The translations under genes and the position numbers were made by a program. A model generated the notes under the pieces. It had not been told where the DNA came from and searched no databases. It saw only the letters and a program-made list of their open reading frames with translations. Positions 22,712 to 29,519 of a DNA stretch of 47,853 bases are shown here, in pieces. Source of the stretch: Jiangella ureilytica. GTDB taxonomy: Bacteria > Actinomycetota > Actinomycetes > Jiangellales > Jiangellaceae. The stretch lies in contig NZ_SMKL01000044.1 of NCBI RefSeq assembly GCF_004348545.1, positions 1 through 47,853 on the forward strand, in the 5' to 3' direction. Every line of letters starts with the position of its first letter. Positions within the stretch are counted from its first letter, which is position 1.

Positions 22712-25501
22712 TCAGGGGAGGGTCCGGCCCAGGGCGTCGCGCAGCTGGCGGCGGCTGGTCACGTCCAGCTTCGCGAAGACCTTCCGCAGGTGCCATTCCA
22801 CGGTGTGGCGGCTGAGGTACAGCTCGGCGCCGATCTCGGGGTTGGTGCGCCCCTCGGCGGCCAGGCGGGCGATGTGCAGCTCCTGGGCGGTGAGTTCCTG
22901 ACGGGTGTGAGCCGCCCGGCGGCGCACCGTCTCGCCGGTGCCCGCCAGCTCGCGGCGCGCCCGTTCGGCGAACGCCCGGACCCCCATGGCCGCCAGCGAC
23001 GCGTGCGCGGGCCGCAGGAACTCGCGCGCGTCGGTGCGGCGGCTCGAACGGCGCAGCCACTCGCCGTAGAGCAGCTGTGCCCGCGCCAGGTCCACCCTGG
23101 CGCCGGTGCGCTCGAGCCGGTCCGTCGCCTCGCGATAGAGACTCTCCACCCGATCTCCGGCGTCGAGCTGTGCCGCGCATCGAGCCGACACGCCGAGCGC
23201 CCAGTCGGTACCGCTGGCCGCGGCCACCTCGGCAAGCCGTGCGGCGGCGGCCGCCGCGGTCGCGAGATCGTCGCACCGGACGGCCGCCTCGACCAGCTCG
23301 GCCAGCGCCCAGGTGCTCGGCTGGATCCCAGTGGGCGCCAGCGTCACCCGTCCGTCCTGCTCGGCCGGTTCGAGGAGGTCACGGCAGTGGGCGAGCGCCG
23401 CCGGGTAGTCACCGTTGCCGTTGCACAGCACGGCGCCGGCCCAGTGGGTGAGCGCCACGACCATTCCTTCACCGCGGGCGGCAGCGTCGGTCCTCGCCAT
23501 GTCGATCAGCGGCCGCGCGTGCTGCTGGTCGCCGCGGAAGGCGGCCAGGGCGATCGCGCCGTACGGATGCAGCGCGGTTCCGGCGACCTCGGCCAGAGCG
23601 GTGGCCTCGTCGAGCAGCGCCGCCGCGGCGCCGAGTTCGCCGGTGAAGAGGTGCGTGAAGACCGCGCTGCTCAGGGCGAGTTGCAGCGCGCTCAAGGCGC
23701 CGGACTCGCGGGCGAGCCCGATGTGGCGGTGGCACAAGGAGACCCACCTGGGCAGGTCCCACAGGTCGACGGCGAGCTCGCTCGCGAGCGCCAGGAACCG
23801 CAGGGTCTCCTCGACGGCGAGGTCGTCGGTGTCGAAGGCCGCGACGACACGTTGCATCAGCGGCGCCGCGGCCACGTAGCCGTCCTCCTGGAGCACGGCG
23901 ATCGCCTGGAGGAACAGATCACCTCGACGCGTGCGGAGCGGGAGTGCCGCCGCTCGCGCTGCCCGTGCGACCTCGACCGCCACGGGCTCACCCCACCGCT
24001 GCCCGGCGAACAGCGTGGCTTCGAGCGCGCTGACGTAGGTGTCGCGCGCCAGCTCGAGGTCGAGCGGCTCCAGCCGGCGTGCGGCGGCCAGCATGAGCTG
24101 AAGGGCCTCGTGGCCGCGGCTGGAAGCGAACGCGACCTGGGCGCGCAGCACCTCGGCGCGAGCACGCTGCAGCTCGGTCAGGGACCGGTGGTCGAGCAGC
24201 CCGAGCAGGCGCAGCGCGTCCTCGACGGCGCCCGCGTGCACCATGGTCTGGGCCGCTTTGAGCTCGCGCTCGACCTGGCCGGCCTCATCGGGAGTGAGCC
24301 GGGCGGCCCGTTCGAGCAGGGCGGCGCCCGCGGCCAGCCCGCCGTTGGCCAGCGCGCGGTCGGCTGAACGCTCCAGCTCCAGGGCCACGTCCTCGTCCGG
24401 ATCGGTGGTCGCGTGGGCACGGTGCCATGCCCGCCGGTCCGGGTCGCGCTCGGGATCCGTGACGTCCGCCAGCACGCGATGTGCCGCCTGCCGATCCGGC
24501 CCCGTCGCGGAGCGGTAGATCGCGGAGCGCACGAGTGGGTGCCGGAACCGGACGGTGTCCCACACCTCGATCAGCTCCGCGGCCTCGGCCGGGGTGGCGG
24601 CGTCCATACCGAGGCCGAGGCGCTCGGCCGCGCGCCGCAGCAGGGCGACGTCGCCGAGCGGCTCGGTCGCGGCGATCAGCAGGAGGCGCCGGGTGTCGTC
24701 GGGCAGCGTGTCGAGCTGACGGCGGAAGCCTTCCTCGATGCGGCTGGTCACCGTCCCGGCCGTGGGCTGAGCCGGCCCGAACATCAGCTCGGCCGACGAC
24801 ATCCACCGCGGCAGCTCCAGCAGCGCCAGCGGATTGCCCCGTGTCTCGGCGAGGATCCGGTCGCGCACCCGGCCGTCCAGCGGGGTCGTGACCACCGACT
24901 CCAGCACGGCGACGGCGTCGGCCTTCTTCAGGCCGTGCACCATCAGCCGCGGCAGTCCCGCCCAGGCCTGCTCCTCCCCCGTCGCCCGCGCCGCGAACAC
25001 CATGAGGATCGACTCCGCGGCCAGCCGGCGCGCGACGAACGTCAGGATCTCGGCAGAGGCCTGGTCGAGCCACTGCGCGTCGTCGATCACGCAGACCAGG
25101 GGCTGGTCACCCACGTGCTCGGAGAGCAGCGTCAGGACCGCCAGCCCGATGTGGAAGCGGTCCGGCGGCCGGCCGGACCGCAGGCCGAACGCCGTACCCA
25201 GGGCCTCGGCCTGCGGCGACGGCAGCCGGTCCAGCCCGTCGAGCAGAGGGTTGCACAGCTGATGGAGGCCGGCGTACGCGAGTTCGATCTCCGACTCGAC
25301 GCCGGCGGCACGGAGGACCCGGCTCTGCGTCGCGGCGTCGACGAGATAGTCGAGGAGGGCGGTCTTGCCGATCCCGGCCTCGCCCTGCACCATGAGCACG
25401 CCGCTGGCGCCCGTCCGTGCCGCTTGCAGCAGGTCGAGAAGTGTCCGGCACTCCTTGTCGCGCCCTCGAAGCCACCGTGCCGAGCGCGAGCCGAGTTGCA
25501 C
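22712..25501 (-). CDS. LAL-type LuxR regulator with AAA ATPase
   Basis: About 929 residues from GTG 25501, chosen because AGGAGG lies 5 nt upstream; an upstream GTG at 25576 would add 25 residues without such a site. Walker A is GEAGIGKT and Walker B is LVCVIDDAQWLD. A long helical TPR-like middle follows, and a C-terminal LuxR helix-turn-helix (ELHIARLAAEGRTNPEIGAE, then SRHTVEWHLRKVF). Such MalT-like proteins activate transcription on sensing a small ligand. It converges on the GH3 gene (19-bp gap), but shared regulation is not shown. Confidence 0.92.
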   Translation of the reverse strand: MQLGSRSARWLRGRDKECRTLLDLLQAARTGASGVLMVQGEAGIGKTALLDYLVDAATQSRVLRAAGVESEIELAYAGLHQLCNPLLDGLDRLPSPQAEALGTAFGLRSGRPPDRFHIGLAVLTLLSEHVGDQPLVCVIDDAQWLDQASAEILTFVARRLAAESILMVFAARATGEEQAWAGLPRLMVHGLKKADAVAVLESVVTTPLDGRVRDRILAETRGNPLALLELPRWMSSAELMFGPAQPTAGTVTSRIEEGFRRQLDTLPDDTRRLLLIAATEPLGDVALLRRAAERLGLGMDAATPAEAAELIEVWDTVRFRHPLVRSAIYRSATGPDRQAAHRVLADVTDPERDPDRRAWHRAHATTDPDEDVALELERSADRALANGGLAAGAALLERAARLTPDEAGQVERELKAAQTMVHAGAVEDALRLLGLLDHRSLTELQRARAEVLRAQVAFASSRGHEALQLMLAAARRLEPLDLELARDTYVSALEATLFAGQRWGEPVAVEVARAARAAALPLRTRRGDLFLQAIAVLQEDGYVAAAPLMQRVVAAFDTDDLAVEETLRFLALASELAVDLWDLPRWVSLCHRHIGLARESGALSALQLALSSAVFTHLFTGELGAAAALLDEATALAEVAGTALHPYGAIALAAFRGDQQHARPLIDMARTDAAARGEGMVVALTHWAGAVLCNGNGDYPAALAHCRDLLEPAEQDGRVTLAPTGIQPSTWALAELVEAAVRCDDLATAAAAAARLAEVAAASGTDWALGVSARCAAQLDAGDRVESLYREATDRLERTGARVDLARAQLLYGEWLRRSSRRTDAREFLRPAHASLAAMGVRAFAERARRELAGTGETVRRRAAHTRQELTAQELHIARLAAEGRTNPEIGAELYLSRHTVEWHLRKVFAKLDVTSRRQLRDALGRTLP

Positions 25502-25684
25502 GACTGCCTCCTGCGATCGAGGTGCAGCCGGACGGTGCGGGCGCCCGGCGCCAGAGCCGATCACCCAGAATCCCACTCACATTCGCGCCGTACAAGACCC
25601 GGTCGAGGCTGCCGCCGAGTAACGGCCGGGCCGGGTCGGGCGACGTCGTCGATCGCTCGATCAGCTGATCGGCGAGCGAGTCGG

Positions 25685-25813
25685 TCAGGTGACGCCGAGC
25701 AGGCGGCGGAGCAGGTCCGGGTTGCCCGGCCAGGCCCCGACCAGCACCGCGAGCCGGACCCGCCGCGGCACCCGGGGGTCGCGGCGCAGCCGCCGAGCGA
25801 GAGGTGCTTGCAT
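25685..25813 (-). CDS. possible 42-residue basic protein, DUF1232-like fragment
   Basis: An ATG-initiated frame with actinobacterial codon pattern. It encodes LARRLRRDPRVPRR, then a short hydrophobic VRLAVLVGAW and PDLLRRLLGVT. The first part resembles the YkvA/DUF1232 pattern (RDPRVPRR...), but the SPIDLIPDFIP core is missing, so it could be a degraded remnant. No ribosome-binding site is visible, and the start codon overlaps the -35 of the divergent MerR promoter. Low certainty. Confidence 0.3.
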   Translation of the reverse strand: MQAPLARRLRRDPRVPRRVRLAVLVGAWPGNPDLLRRLLGVT

Positions 25814-25838
25814 CCGGTACCCGGGTACGGGTTTACCG
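25808..25838 (+). promoter_or_regulatory. MerR-type promoter with 19-bp spacer
   Basis: TTGCAT (25808-25813) and TTACCG (25833-25838) are separated by 19 bp, the stretched spacing that MerR-family regulators untwist. The spacer contains the perfect palindrome GTACCCGGGTAC (25818-25829), flanked by CCG and GG, like the mer operator. The start point would fall at about 25845, directly at the ATG at 25846, so the message is probably leaderless. Confidence 0.8.
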
Positions 25839-25845
25839 TCGAGAC

Positions 25846-26157
25846 ATGGACATCCTCGCCGACTTCGTACCGGACGCCTGCACGCTCCCCACGGCGGATC
25901 GGCCGCTGCGGCTGGCCGAGTTCGCCACGCTGTTCCGGACCTCCGCCCGCGCCGTCGGCCGGGTGTCGCCCACCAGGCTGCGGCTGCGGCTCGACGACGA
26001 CCCGGCGGTGACGGCGACGGCGCGCGACCTCGCCGCCCGCGAGAGCGCCTGCTGCGCGTTCTTCACCTTCACGTTCGGCGACGGCGGCGAGCTGACGGTC
26101 GACGTGCCGCCGGCGCACGCCGCCGTGCTCGACGGGCTGGAGCGGCTGGCCCGGTGA
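25846..26157 (+). CDS. small Cys-containing protein of a MerR-controlled unit
   Basis: A 103-residue soluble protein starting at ATG 25846, right at the predicted transcription start. Cys12 (DACTLPT) and the vicinal pair Cys69-Cys70 in ARESACCAFFTFTF are notable; a CC pair followed by aromatic residues could hold a soft metal. I do not know a characterised homologue, though it looks like a conserved actinobacterial partner of MerR genes. Its stop overlaps the merR start (GTGA), so both are co-expressed. A metal-related role is inference. Confidence 0.7.
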   Translation: MDILADFVPDACTLPTADRPLRLAEFATLFRTSARAVGRVSPTRLRLRLDDDPAVTATARDLAARESACCAFFTFTFGDGGELTVDVPPAHAAVLDGLERLAR

Positions 26158-26588
26158 GCATCGGGCCGGGCACCGGGTTGCGCAGCGGCGACCTCGCCGC
26201 CGCGGCCGGCGTCAACCTGCAGACGCTGCGCTACTACGAACGACGGGGGCTGCTCGCCCAGCCGGACCGCACACTCGGCGGCCACCGCGTCTACCCGCCC
26301 GACTCCGTCACGACGGTGCGGATCATCAAGGCCGCGCAGCGGCTCGGGTTCACGCTGGACGAGATCGCCGAGCTCGTCGACACCGGCCGCCGGCACGCGC
26401 GCACCGACGCCGACCTGCACGAGCGGGCGGCGGCGAAGATCCGCGAGATCGAGGGGCGCATCGGCGACCTGGTCGCGATCCGCGACACCCTGCGCGCCGC
26501 GCTGGACGCCGGCTGCCACGACCTGCGCGACTGCGCCGGGAGCCCGGACTGCCCCATCCCGTTCACCGGCCTCGCGCAGGACCGGTGA
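26154..26588 (+). CDS. MerR-family metal-type regulator
   Basis: A 144-residue MerR protein from GTG 26154. The winged helix LRSGDLAAAAGVNLQTLRYY and the dimerisation helix are typical. The metal-site end is GCHDLRDC, then SPDCPIPF, with Cys121, Cys127 and Cys133. In the mercury sensors a third ligand is Cys82; here position 82 is Ala, so a classical trigonal Hg(II) site is not complete. It is encoded second in the unit it presumably controls, not divergently. Metal specificity is open. Confidence 0.88.
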   Translation: MSIGPGTGLRSGDLAAAAGVNLQTLRYYERRGLLAQPDRTLGGHRVYPPDSVTTVRIIKAAQRLGFTLDEIAELVDTGRRHARTDADLHERAAAKIREIEGRIGDLVAIRDTLRAALDAGCHDLRDCAGSPDCPIPFTGLAQDR

Positions 26589-26615: not shown

Positions 26616-27005
26616 TCAGCCGACCGCGGTGTCCTGGTGCGCCGCCAGCGGGAGCGACCGGATCCGCCGGCCGCGGACGATCTCGGGCATGATCCGCACC
26701 CGGTCGCCGTCAGCGCGCGAGCGGCCGATCAGCACCACGCACCAGCCCGTGCGGGTGTCCTCGTCGTAGGCGTCGGCCTCGAAGGCGACGACGGCCATGC
26801 GCGACGCGGCCGGCAGGTGCAGCCCCTGCTCGGCCCGGACCACCACGTCGTGACCGTCGAGGCTGAAGCGGACCGGCTCGATGGCCGGCAGCGCGCCCTG
26901 GGTGAACACCAGCCGCCCGATCGACGTCCGGGACAGCAGGTCGTAGCAGGTCTGCCGGTCCAGCTGTTCGAGGCCGTCGGAGTCGGCACGCGTCAACGGG
27001 TCCAC
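26616..27005 (-). CDS. pyridoxamine 5'-phosphate oxidase-family protein
   Basis: About 129 residues from GTG 27005. An ATG at 27056 exists but would place the DosR-like box inside the coding sequence. The start of the fold (DLLSRTSIGRLVFTQGALPAIEPVRF) and HDVVVRAEQG, VAFEADAYDE, GWCVVLIGRS are typical of the split-barrel flavin-binding family found in DosR-type regulons. It may bind FMN or F420. Divergent from devR across a DosR-like box. Confidence 0.85.
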   Translation of the reverse strand: MDPLTRADSDGLEQLDRQTCYDLLSRTSIGRLVFTQGALPAIEPVRFSLDGHDVVVRAEQGLHLPAASRMAVVAFEADAYDEDTRTGWCVVLIGRSRADGDRVRIMPEIVRGRRIRSLPLAAHQDTAVG

Positions 27006-27040
27006 GTCCCCAGCGTTCCGCCCGTCCGTGCGCCCGGGAA

Positions 27041-27054
27041 GGGACCAAGGTCCC
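27041..27054. promoter_or_regulatory. DosR/DevR-type box between the PNPOx-like gene and devR
   Basis: GGGACCAAGGTCCC matches the 14-bp core of the mycobacterial DosR motif (GGGACTWWAGTCCC). It is centred in the 85-bp divergent region, 35 bp from the PNPOx-like start and 36 bp from the devR start, so one site could serve both promoters. Confidence 0.8.
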
Positions 27055-27090
27055 ATGCCCGTACCGGCTACCGGGCACTACGGTCGTCAT

Positions 27091-27759
27091 GTGAGCTCCG
27101 ATCGTGTCGTCACGGTCTTCCTGCTCGACGACCACGAGGTGGTCCGGCGCGGAGTCGCCGCCCTGCTCGAGACCGAGCCCGACATCGAGGTCATCGGCGA
27201 GGCGGGCACCGCCGAGCAGGCGATGGCCCGCATCCCCGCGTTGCGCCCCGATGTCGCCATCCTCGACGTGCGGCTGCCCGACGGCGACGGCGTCACCGTC
27301 TGCCGCGAGATGCGCTCGCGGCTGCCGGGGCTGCAGTGCCTGATGTTCACCTCCTTCGCCGACGACGACGCGCTGTTCGACGCCGTCATGGCCGGCGCCG
27401 CGGGCTACGTGCTGAAGCAGGTGCACGGCACCGACCTCGTCGGGGCCGTGCGAGCGCTGGCCATGGGCAAGTCGCTGCTCGACCCCGAGAGCACGGCCCG
27501 CATGCTCGCCCGGCTCCGCGAGCGGGCGACGCGCGCGGACCCGCTGGCGGCGCTGACCGACCAGGAGCGGCGCATCCTCGACCTCATCGGCGAGGGCCTG
27601 ACGAACCGGCAGATCGGCGAGCGCATGTTCCTCGCCGAGAAGACGGTCAAGAACTACGTCTCCAACCTGCTCGCCAAGCTCGACATGAGCCGCCGCACTC
27701 AGGCCGCCGCGCTCGCGGCCACTCTCAAGGCGGAGGCGAAGGACCGTCCGAGCGACTAG
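27091..27759 (+). CDS. devR: NarL/LuxR-family response regulator, DevR/DosR type
   Basis: A 222-residue response regulator from GTG 27091. The receiver domain has the acidic pair LLDDHE and the phospho-acceptor Asp59 in AILDVRLPDGDG. The C-terminal LuxR helix-turn-helix reads GEGLTNRQIGERMF and EKTVKNYVSNLLAKLDMSRR, nearly the DosR recognition region. No clear ribosome-binding site, possibly leaderless. Together with the devS-like kinase and two DosR-type boxes it forms a hypoxia/NO/CO sensing unit with autoregulation. Confidence 0.9.
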   Translation: MSSDRVVTVFLLDDHEVVRRGVAALLETEPDIEVIGEAGTAEQAMARIPALRPDVAILDVRLPDGDGVTVCREMRSRLPGLQCLMFTSFADDDALFDAVMAGAAGYVLKQVHGTDLVGAVRALAMGKSLLDPESTARMLARLRERATRADPLAALTDQERRILDLIGEGLTNRQIGERMFLAEKTVKNYVSNLLAKLDMSRRTQAAALAATLKAEAKDRPSD

Positions 27760-27821
27760 CGACGCCGCCATGGTCGGCTCATGACCTCCTGGGCATGGAG
27801 CGGACGCAAGGCGCCCGCACC

Positions 27822-29519
27822 CTAGCGCCGCAGCGGGACCTCCCAGCGCACCACGGTCCCGCCGGCGACGCCCGGCCCGGCGGTGAACCGGCCGCCGAGC
27901 AGCTCCGCCCGCTCGGCGAGGTTGGCCAGGCCGCTGTTGCGCCGCTGCGCCGGCAGCCCCACGCCGTCGTCGGCCACGGAGACCCGCAGCCAGCCGCCGG
28001 CCAGCTCGACGACCGCGGTGACCTGGTGGGCGTGCGCGTGTCTGACGACGTTGGACAGCGACTCCTGCAGCACGGGCGCCAGCTGGTCGCCGAGCTCGTC
28101 GGGGACGGCGTTGTCGAGCTCGCCGACCAGCTGCAGGCCGGGCGCGAACCCCAGCTGATCGGCCGCCGCCTGCACCGTCGTCACCAGCCGGCGGCGCAGC
28201 GTGTCCGAAGCGTCCTCCTTGGCCGACTGCAGCGCGAAGATCGTCGACCGGATCTGCCGGATCGTCGCGTCGAGGTCGTCGACGGTCCGCTCGACCCGCG
28301 ACGCGACGTCGGGGCGGTCGATCAGCCGCGCGGCCGCCGTCAGGCTCATCGCGCTGGCGAACAGCCGCTGGACGACGACGTCGTGCAGGTCGCGGGCGAT
28401 CCGCTCGCGGTCGTCGACCAGCCCGTGCCGTTCGGCCTCCTTGCGCGCGTCGGCCAGCTCCAGCCCGACGGCGGCCTGGCTGGCGAACGCGTGCAGCATG
28501 CGCACCGCCGCGCCGGCGAAGGGCGGGTCGCCGTCGCGCTTGACCAGCACCAGCACGCCACGGACCCGGGGCCGGCTGCCCAGCGGCACCAGCAGCGCCG
28601 GGCCTGTGGGCAGCTGGTCCAGCAGCGGCGCCGGCTCGACGCCGCGCTCGATCGCAGTGACCGTCCGCGGCTCGCCGGACTCGAGAACGGTCTGCGACAG
28701 CGTCCCGGCGGCGGAGAACCGCACCCCCCGCAACGGCGGCGAGCCGTCGCCGTCGGCCGCGAGCACCCGCATGAGCCCGCTGCCGTCGTCGTCGGGCGCC
28801 ACGACCACCGCGGACGCCGCCGACGACATGGTCCGTGCGTGCGTCGCGATCAGCGTCAGCGCCTCGTCGACGGAGCTGCCCGACAGCAGCGCCTGCGTGA
28901 CCTCGGCCAATGCGTCCAGCCAGGTCTCGCGCCTACGGCTGGCGTCGTAGAGGCGCGCGTTCTCGATGGCGATGCCGGCGGCGGTGGCCAGCGCGGTGAC
29001 GATGGTCTCGTCCTGCTCGTCGAACTCGCGCCCGCCGTTCTTCTCCGTCAGGTACAGGTTGCCGAAGACCTCGCCGCGAATCAGGATCGGCACCCCGAGG
29101 AAGCTGCGCATCGGCGGGTGGCCCTCCGGGAACCCGTACGACTCCGCGTGCTCGGAGATCTCGGCCAGCCGCAGCGGCTCCGGCTCCTTGATGAGCAGGC
29201 CCAGCAGGCCGCGACCGTGCGGCCACTCGGCGATGCGCGCGATCTCGCCGGCGGTCAGACCGAGCGGGATGAACTGCGCGAGCTGCCCGTCGGGCCCGAC
29301 CACGCCCAGGGCGCCGTAACGACAGTCGACGAGATCGATGGCGGCTTCGACGATGCGCCGCAGCGCGGTCTCCAGGTCGAGCTCCCGCCCGATCGACACC
29401 ACGGCCTCGAGCAGCGCATGCACCCCGTCGCGCGCGGACACCACGGCCTGCAACCGTGACTGCACCTCGGCCAGCAGTGAATCGAGCGGCAGCTTCGGAA
29501 GAAGCTCCGACTCGAACAC
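27822..29519 (-). CDS. devS: GAF-domain histidine kinase, DevS/DosS type
   Basis: A 565-residue sensor kinase. GTG 29519 follows GGGGG at 5 nt. The first GAF domain (about 50-205) contains GLLGLLIKEPEPLRL and HPPMRSFLGVPI; His134 matches the heme-ligand position of mycobacterial DosS. A second GAF follows (about 220-365). The dimerisation box is ERIARDLHDVVVQRLF, with the HATPase region ending GLANLAERAELLGG. It is convergent with devR instead of co-transcribed as in mycobacteria, and has its own DosR-like box upstream. Confidence 0.92.
   Translation of the reverse strand: MFESELLPKLPLDSLLAEVQSRLQAVVSARDGVHALLEAVVSIGRELDLETALRRIVEAAIDLVDCRYGALGVVGPDGQLAQFIPLGLTAGEIARIAEWPHGRGLLGLLIKEPEPLRLAEISEHAESYGFPEGHPPMRSFLGVPILIRGEVFGNLYLTEKNGGREFDEQDETIVTALATAAGIAIENARLYDASRRRETWLDALAEVTQALLSGSSVDEALTLIATHARTMSSAASAVVVAPDDDGSGLMRVLAADGDGSPPLRGVRFSAAGTLSQTVLESGEPRTVTAIERGVEPAPLLDQLPTGPALLVPLGSRPRVRGVLVLVKRDGDPPFAGAAVRMLHAFASQAAVGLELADARKEAERHGLVDDRERIARDLHDVVVQRLFASAMSLTAAARLIDRPDVASRVERTVDDLDATIRQIRSTIFALQSAKEDASDTLRRRLVTTVQAAADQLGFAPGLQLVGELDNAVPDELGDQLAPVLQESLSNVVRHAHAHQVTAVVELAGGWLRVSVADDGVGLPAQRRNSGLANLAERAELLGGRFTAGPGVAGGTVVRWEVPLRR

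Follow-up and report, generated by a model that had tools for sequence, protein, structure and literature searches.

A MerR-Controlled Unit of Actinomycetes Encoding an Unnamed Cys-Cys Protein: A Probable Response to Soft Metal(loid) Ions

Background

The spacer of the mer promoter measures 19 bp, and ArsD carries a three-cysteine As(III) site that includes a vicinal Cys pair. For the MerR family in general, passages of two reports give promoter spacers of 19–20 bp (PMC5045206, PMC9909328), and the classical MerR is described in passages of the second of these as binding Hg(II) with Cys82′, Cys117 and Cys126. In Actinobacteria, passages of PMC5045206 introduce the HMRTR regulators, that is, MerR-family heavy-metal regulators, with 52 actinobacterial factors retained after filtering and distributed over five subfamilies. 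Outside this family, passages of PMC11212059 report a site of three cysteines from a single AfArsR chain that takes up As(III) and binds Hg(II) more tightly still. In the tables seen from PMC10551460, YnfA and MerR-DNA-bind appear as separate rows. A module combining a small Cys-Cys protein with a MerR regulator was not found described in the literature searched (open-licence PMC text).

Such a module is present in Jiangella ureilytica, in a stretch of 47,853 nucleotides analysed as a whole (contig NZ_SMKL01000044.1; hereafter the window). It is best explained as a unit that controls its own expression in response to soft metal(loid) ions with a preference for thiols, in which a MerR switch would control an unnamed ion-capturing domain, here called CC. 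A probability of about 0.7 is assigned to this reading, which was built from sequence comparisons. One published observation counts against it as a metal switch, namely the statement in passages of PMC4531530 that metal resistance proteins share an operon with none of the metal-related merR genes of Frankia.

Organization of the unit

The unit occupies positions 25808–26588 of the + strand and consists of a MerR-type promoter/operator (25808–25839), the gene of the 103-aa CC protein (25846–26157, stop codon included) and the gene of a 144-aa MerR-family regulator (26154–26588, stop codon included). The two genes overlap, the GTG start codon of the regulator sharing bases with the TGA stop codon of the CC gene (GTGA). 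A two-gene MerR-controlled unit whose small partner carries a Cys-Cys pair had been proposed in the first-pass annotation; both elements were recovered, the pair being C69-C70, and the comparative data described below back the pairing of the genes.

Both flanking genes lie on the opposite strand, with a LuxR-type regulator containing an AAA ATPase domain upstream (22712–25576) and a pyridoxamine-oxidase-like gene downstream (26616–27056). The latter belongs to a stretch (26616–29519) in which it is consecutive with a LuxR-type response regulator and a GAF histidine kinase, by appearance a hypoxia-type two-component set. Neither the gene listing of the window nor its Pfam annotation revealed a transporter or resistance gene behind the CC-MerR unit. 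The host genome does encode YnfA, on a different contig from the unit and without the operator.

A promoter/operator dedicated to CC and MerR genes

The promoter combines the -35 box TTGCAT (25808–25813) and the -10 box TACCGT (25834–25839), with the inverted repeat CCGGTACCC/GGGTACGGG lying inside the spacer (25814–25831; by eye, 8 of the 9 pairs match). With the boxes defined by the conserved TTG and TANNNT, the spacer measures 20 bp. The "stretched 19-bp spacer" with a palindrome reported earlier was therefore correct as to the excessive length and the repeat, but one base pair too short. A scan for the sigma-70 consensus, which permits spacers of 16–18 nt only, found nothing.

The comparative material came from one pattern-limited genome scan that yielded 420 CC relatives confirmed by tblastn. 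The best 80 of them, found with the Cys-Cys pattern, were fetched with their surroundings, four being left out of the alignment of the fetched loci (A2). The operator was present in 75 of the 81 loci formed by the window and these 80 relatives (74/80 without the window), the search covering some 330 bp ahead of the matched start and allowing up to four substitutions, of which two at most were used. Across the 75 sites the dyad inside the over-long spacer, a trait of the MerR family, showed 5 to 9 of the 9 possible pairs, whereas 18-mers from the flanks mostly gave 0 to 5. The site holds 1.63 bits per base, versus 0.16 and 0.23 for two stretches flanking it upstream and 0.26 at the beginning of the coding sequence, although part of the site's value is built in because the sites had been chosen with a pattern. 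Bases that the pattern leaves free are conserved as well (base 23 is G in 74/75 sites and base 24 is G in 70/75). Mere kinship of the DNA as the reason for conservation was rejected, given the low information of the flanks.

A search with the operator alone, in 296 genomes of the class and with one mismatch at most, returned 46 sites in 41 genomes, 21 of them from the window's own family, versus none for the reversed control, and a chance promoter was rejected on this basis. Of these sites 45 were examined, the remaining one being a second copy in the same genome (G193). A CC domain lay within 600 nt downstream in 40 cases and three more sites stood directly before a MerR gene, so that 43/45 precede a CC and/or a MerR gene, with neither found at the other two. 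Taken together, these sequence data indicate that the MerR-type promoter/operator recognized at first pass is real and specific to CC/MerR genes. The host genome contains the pattern once at up to three mismatches (reversed control, 0), and a wider operator regulon in this host was rejected, there being one site only.

Two Jiangella relatives carry operator-like sites with one mismatch (G203:C68:113827-113858 and G204:C102:141807-141838) in front of a gene that encodes neither a CC nor a MerR domain and looks arginase-like by eye, which might be a second target or reflect a chance site.

The first-pass annotation had also placed the start of the CC gene on the first ATG. This codon lies at 25846, 6 nt past the -10 box, and the geometry is common, since an in-frame ATG or GTG falls 5–9 nt past the -10 box at 62 of the 75 operator sites (window included). 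In three plasmid records, four CC genes are annotated as starting exactly 6 nt past it. The CC start codon would thereby coincide with the predicted transcription start, the arrangement required for the leaderless message proposed at first pass.

The CC protein and its fusions

Searched at E values up to 1, the CC protein matched no family of Pfam or NCBIfam, the HMA domain (PF00403, looked for in Pfam) included, and the CC family is accordingly unnamed in these two libraries. Its residues C12, E66, C69 and C70 were present in all 62 distinct CC domains counted, which came from 70 profile hits (E 0.001, at least 70 aligned positions) at loci found without requiring the Cys-Cys pattern; the profile itself favours cysteines, and one Cys-less domain, described below, lies outside this count. 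The AlphaFold2 model (mean pLDDT 78.3) is weak at the N-terminus and around Cys12. Its predicted elements follow one another as helix-strand-strand-helix-strand-strand-helix, and the Cys pair is located where one of the helices ends. Foldseek gave no match to this model at E 0.001 or better. Comparison with PDB structures gave at best Z 8.2 (rmsd 5.2 Å over 83 residues), followed by Z 8.1 (2.6 Å over 74 residues), and rows resembling the ArgR C-terminal domain at Z of about 8 fall within the range that the tool calls common, for a model that is weak at its N-terminus. By sequence, a single weak PDB match was obtained (7txm, E 0.028); the similarity is confined to the surroundings of the Cys pair, and it was dismissed as a chance match.

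Fusions give clues to the function of this domain. In eight genomes CC is joined in frame to the C-terminus of MerR, the MerR part having been recognized by Pfam scan in one (L005), by BLAST in three more and by eye in the rest. A fused CC domain used as query recovers the CC protein of the window at E 5.4e-4. In a Jiangella relative (G206) the MerR-CC fusion, detected by tblastn only, has lost all three CC cysteines together. The same genome provides both proteins in which CC is joined to thioredoxin, and at L147:6623-9008 a thioredoxin-CC fusion lies near the MerR-CC fusion with the Cys-less domain. In one further genome (locus L152) CC is joined to a P-type ATPase of the cadmium family (TIGR01512, 499.6 bits for a cut-off of 313.5) that has no HMA match. 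The genus of this ATPase has the CC domain in 14 of 98 genomes, with only one open frame long enough for the ATPase.

Finally, Cys-rich proteins that end in CC and lack a recognizable MerR DNA-binding part occur in two genomes. The first of them (L153:6842-7663) matched no Pfam or NCBIfam family when scanned; it is preceded by the operator and followed by a MerR remnant and YnfA. It is perhaps a MerR relative that has lost its DNA-binding part, and the second protein looks alike.

The eight MerR-CC fusions, the GTGA overlap and the lack of any other gene in the unit of the window would suit a CC protein that mainly regulates MerR, loading or unloading its ion or acting as co-sensor, rather than detoxifying. 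This alternative overlaps with the preferred reading and does not exclude it. As the principal function of CC it is unlikely, for CC-YnfA units without intact MerR exist at three loci (L170, L172 and L189, the last keeping a MerR tail remnant) and CC is also fused to an ATPase and to thioredoxin.

Distribution and gene neighbourhood

Among named organisms, Jiangella aurantiaca and J. endophytica carry the best relatives of the unit. A CC match was obtained in 10 of 11 other genomes of the host genus searched, in 20 of 60 relatives and in 7 of 198 genomes of the phylum, a patchy distribution indicating that the unit is not essential. Among viral sequences, 27 pattern hits were obtained, none being a CC relative. 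In one genome (G193) the same CC unit is found near both ends of one long contig (C1:180-467 and C1:8029025-8029312), an arrangement expected of a linear chromosome with terminal repeats.

The homologue search suggested at first pass showed CC and MerR to be regular neighbours. Among the best 80 of the 420 relatives, a same-strand MerR match starting between -500 and +200 nt of the CC stop codon was present at 66 loci, the match being 1.2 kb away at one more and absent from the fetched stretch at 13. In this same sample of 80, YnfA follows downstream at 38 loci, always on the same strand, and a small MerT-like membrane protein with a CC-x-x-P motif accompanies the unit at 11 (tblastn) to 13 (clustering) loci. 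It is the third gene in some relatives. The three MerT-like proteins scanned reached 15.5 to 21.6 bits with PF02411, below its cut-off of 32.9, the CC-x-x-P motif being recognized by eye. ArsC-family genes occur in the fetched stretch at 8 of the 80 loci versus 0.28 expected, the expectation being derived from 124 matches in 98 genomes (413.5 Mb) with a looser control threshold and ignoring phylogeny and resistance islands. In single genomes the orders ATPase-CC-MerR-YnfA (L166) and ArsR-aquaporin-ArsC-ArsC-CC-YnfA (L172; aquaporin and ArsC named by eye) were observed.

Plasmid matches were found in six records, four of which were examined. The unit follows arsenate reductase genes on a plasmid of M. 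intracellulare and an ArsR plus heavy-metal ATPase pair on one of M. paragordonae. On the conjugative plasmid pNOCA01 of Nocardioides sp. JS614 (NC_008697.1), there are two copies of a CC-MerR-MerT-like set within 10 kb of merA and merB, and redoxin and CcdA genes adjoin the unit. On a Streptomyces plasmid no metal(loid) gene context surrounds it. The CC gene is named "hypothetical protein" in five of the six records and corresponds to no listed gene in the sixth. Considered with the fusions, these neighbours argue for a role of the small protein.

The redoxin and CcdA genes of pNOCA01, the thioredoxin-CC fusions (one genome) and the vicinal Cys pair could also be read as signs of redox chemistry, with the tail cysteines of MerR as detectors of disulfide or mycothiol stress and CC as a small thiol redox partner instead of a metal carrier. 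Against this stand the many metal(loid) genes among neighbours and fusions (cadmium-type ATPase, ArsC, ArsR, MerT-like, merA/merB) and the fact that Cys12 and Glu66 equal the Cys pair in constancy, which together make a thiol or electrophile sensor quite improbable.

The MerR regulator

The regulator has the winged helix-turn-helix and dimerization helix of its family, with all three Pfam domains over their cut-offs (PF13411, 4.3e-17; PF09278, 1.2e-15; PF00376, 1.8e-13). The best NCBIfam model is the mercury-resistance MerR equivalog TIGR02051, which is nevertheless missed (99.7 bits versus 150.85). The CueR equivalog TIGR02044 is missed too (88.5 versus 147.4), as are the cut-offs of the remaining NCBIfam models listed. 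The best PDB chain is the mercury MerR 5CRL. In the alignment with it, Ala82 takes the place of Cys82, as the first-pass annotation had stated, while Cys121 and Cys133 occupy the positions of Cys117 and Cys126, and Cys127 falls inside a three-residue insertion. Two cysteines of the classical triad are thus present and the third is replaced by Ala.

These features are shared by the family. Among 67 CC-linked MerR sequences, a few of them broken or cut, tail cysteines were counted at the positions of Cys121 (64), Cys127 (64) and Cys133 (63), and 66 sequences had no Cys at about residues 61–110, numbered from the start of each match. The single exception (L080) is a short match with shifted numbering. 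The loss of Cys82 is, on these alignments, a trait of the CC-linked MerR family, and the regulator is a MerR-family member that both score and Cys82 place outside the mercury MerR group. The three C-terminal cysteines noted earlier do exist, but they were not simply kept, as the classical tail has two ligands and Cys127 was added. Likewise, the absence of Cys82 holds, but the "incomplete mercury site" was the weak part of the first-pass description, because the site may have been rebuilt with the extra tail cysteine. From the sequences, a three-sulfur site would then be formed within one MerR subunit.

That the regulator might be an ordinary mercury-responsive MerR with CC as an incidental hitchhiker is suggested by its best NCBIfam model and best PDB chain, by the MerT-like gene of some relatives and by merA/merB on pNOCA01, but it is the least probable explanation of all, given the shortfall with TIGR02051, the family-wide absence of Cys82, the lack of a MerB match in the 80 fetched loci (best 80 of 420, by tblastn) as in the host genome, and the CC domain found behind 40/45 operator sites, sometimes without MerR.

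A model for the proposed metal(loid) response

In the preferred model of a metal(loid) response unit, a MerR dimer would sit on the over-long 20-bp spacer of its own promoter and bind the ion through Cys121, Cys127 and Cys133 of the tail, the extra Cys127 replacing the cross-subunit Cys82. The ion-bound regulator would untwist the DNA and start a leaderless message opening with the first CC codon, MerR itself being made from the same message through the overlapping stop and start codons. The CC protein would capture the ion with Cys12, Cys69, Cys70 and perhaps Glu66, thereby buffering it, and pass it to partners in efflux or reduction; candidates for these in the relatives are YnfA, the MerT-like protein, the P-type ATPase, arsenic genes or thioredoxin. 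The assignment of CC as a soft metal(loid)-binding domain is suggested by its fusion to a regulator and to a pump, by its metal(loid) neighbours and by the constant set of three cysteines.

Regarding the signal, the earlier proposal of a metal or thiol sensor distinct from the classical MerR stands as to distinctness, Cys82 being absent in the family; mercury, arsenic, another metal and thiol stress are all candidate signals. The two front-runners, of equal weight and each a tentative candidate short of an even chance, are As(III)/Sb(III) and Hg(II), and Cd/Pb/Zn are less likely. The sequence context gives mixed indications: arsenic from the ArsC-family neighbours and from two plasmids, mercury from the MerT-like partner and from pNOCA01, and cadmium or lead from the ATPase. 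The cysteine set by itself does not discriminate, since in the passages of PMC11212059 a three-cysteine site within one chain accepts As(III) as well as, with tighter binding, Hg(II).

A bolder version holds that CC is a new soft-metal(loid) domain (three Cys, perhaps with Glu) plugged into regulators, pumps and thioredoxins as HMA is, its MerR partner sensing As(III)/Sb(III) through the three-cysteine site within a subunit. In this complete form the proposal is doubtful; if true, the partner would be an arsenic sensor within the MerR family.

The putative metal(loid) unit, compact and shared by many actinomycetes, gives a family of unknown proteins a testable job, and would provide a role for "hypothetical proteins" in arsenic and mercury islands. 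A MerR subfamily that gave up the cross-subunit cysteine used for mercury would show another route to metal selectivity in MerR proteins, and its short, self-contained promoter would be of use for metal(loid) biosensors.

Comparison with known systems

In its proposed mode of action, the unit would work like a metal switch of the mer or cue type. With the MerR of mer operons (5CRL; TIGR02051) the regulator shares the winged helix-turn-helix, the dimer helix, the short Cys tail and a dyad placed between over-spaced -35 and -10 boxes. It differs in having Ala for Cys82, the extra Cys127 and a score below the TIGR02051 cut-off, in a gene order that places it second, behind CC, within its own operon, and in the 20-bp spacer. 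The CC-linked MerR group may be among the HMRTR factors of PMC5045206, whose passages describe DNA-site correlations and mention no CC protein. YnfA (UPF0060; PF02694), so frequent downstream in the relatives' loci (38 of the best 80 of 420), is absent from the unit of the window. The three-cysteine As(III) sites of AfArsR and ArsD are the counterpart of the proposed CC site, in a protein that differs from them in having no Pfam family match at E up to 1. Being a small, soluble domain with cysteines that in one case is fused to a P-type ATPase, CC would resemble the MerP/HMA metallochaperones in its way of working, from which it is set apart by the lack of an HMA match and by a predicted fold, with three helices and four strands in the order given above, in which the Cys pair ends a helix.
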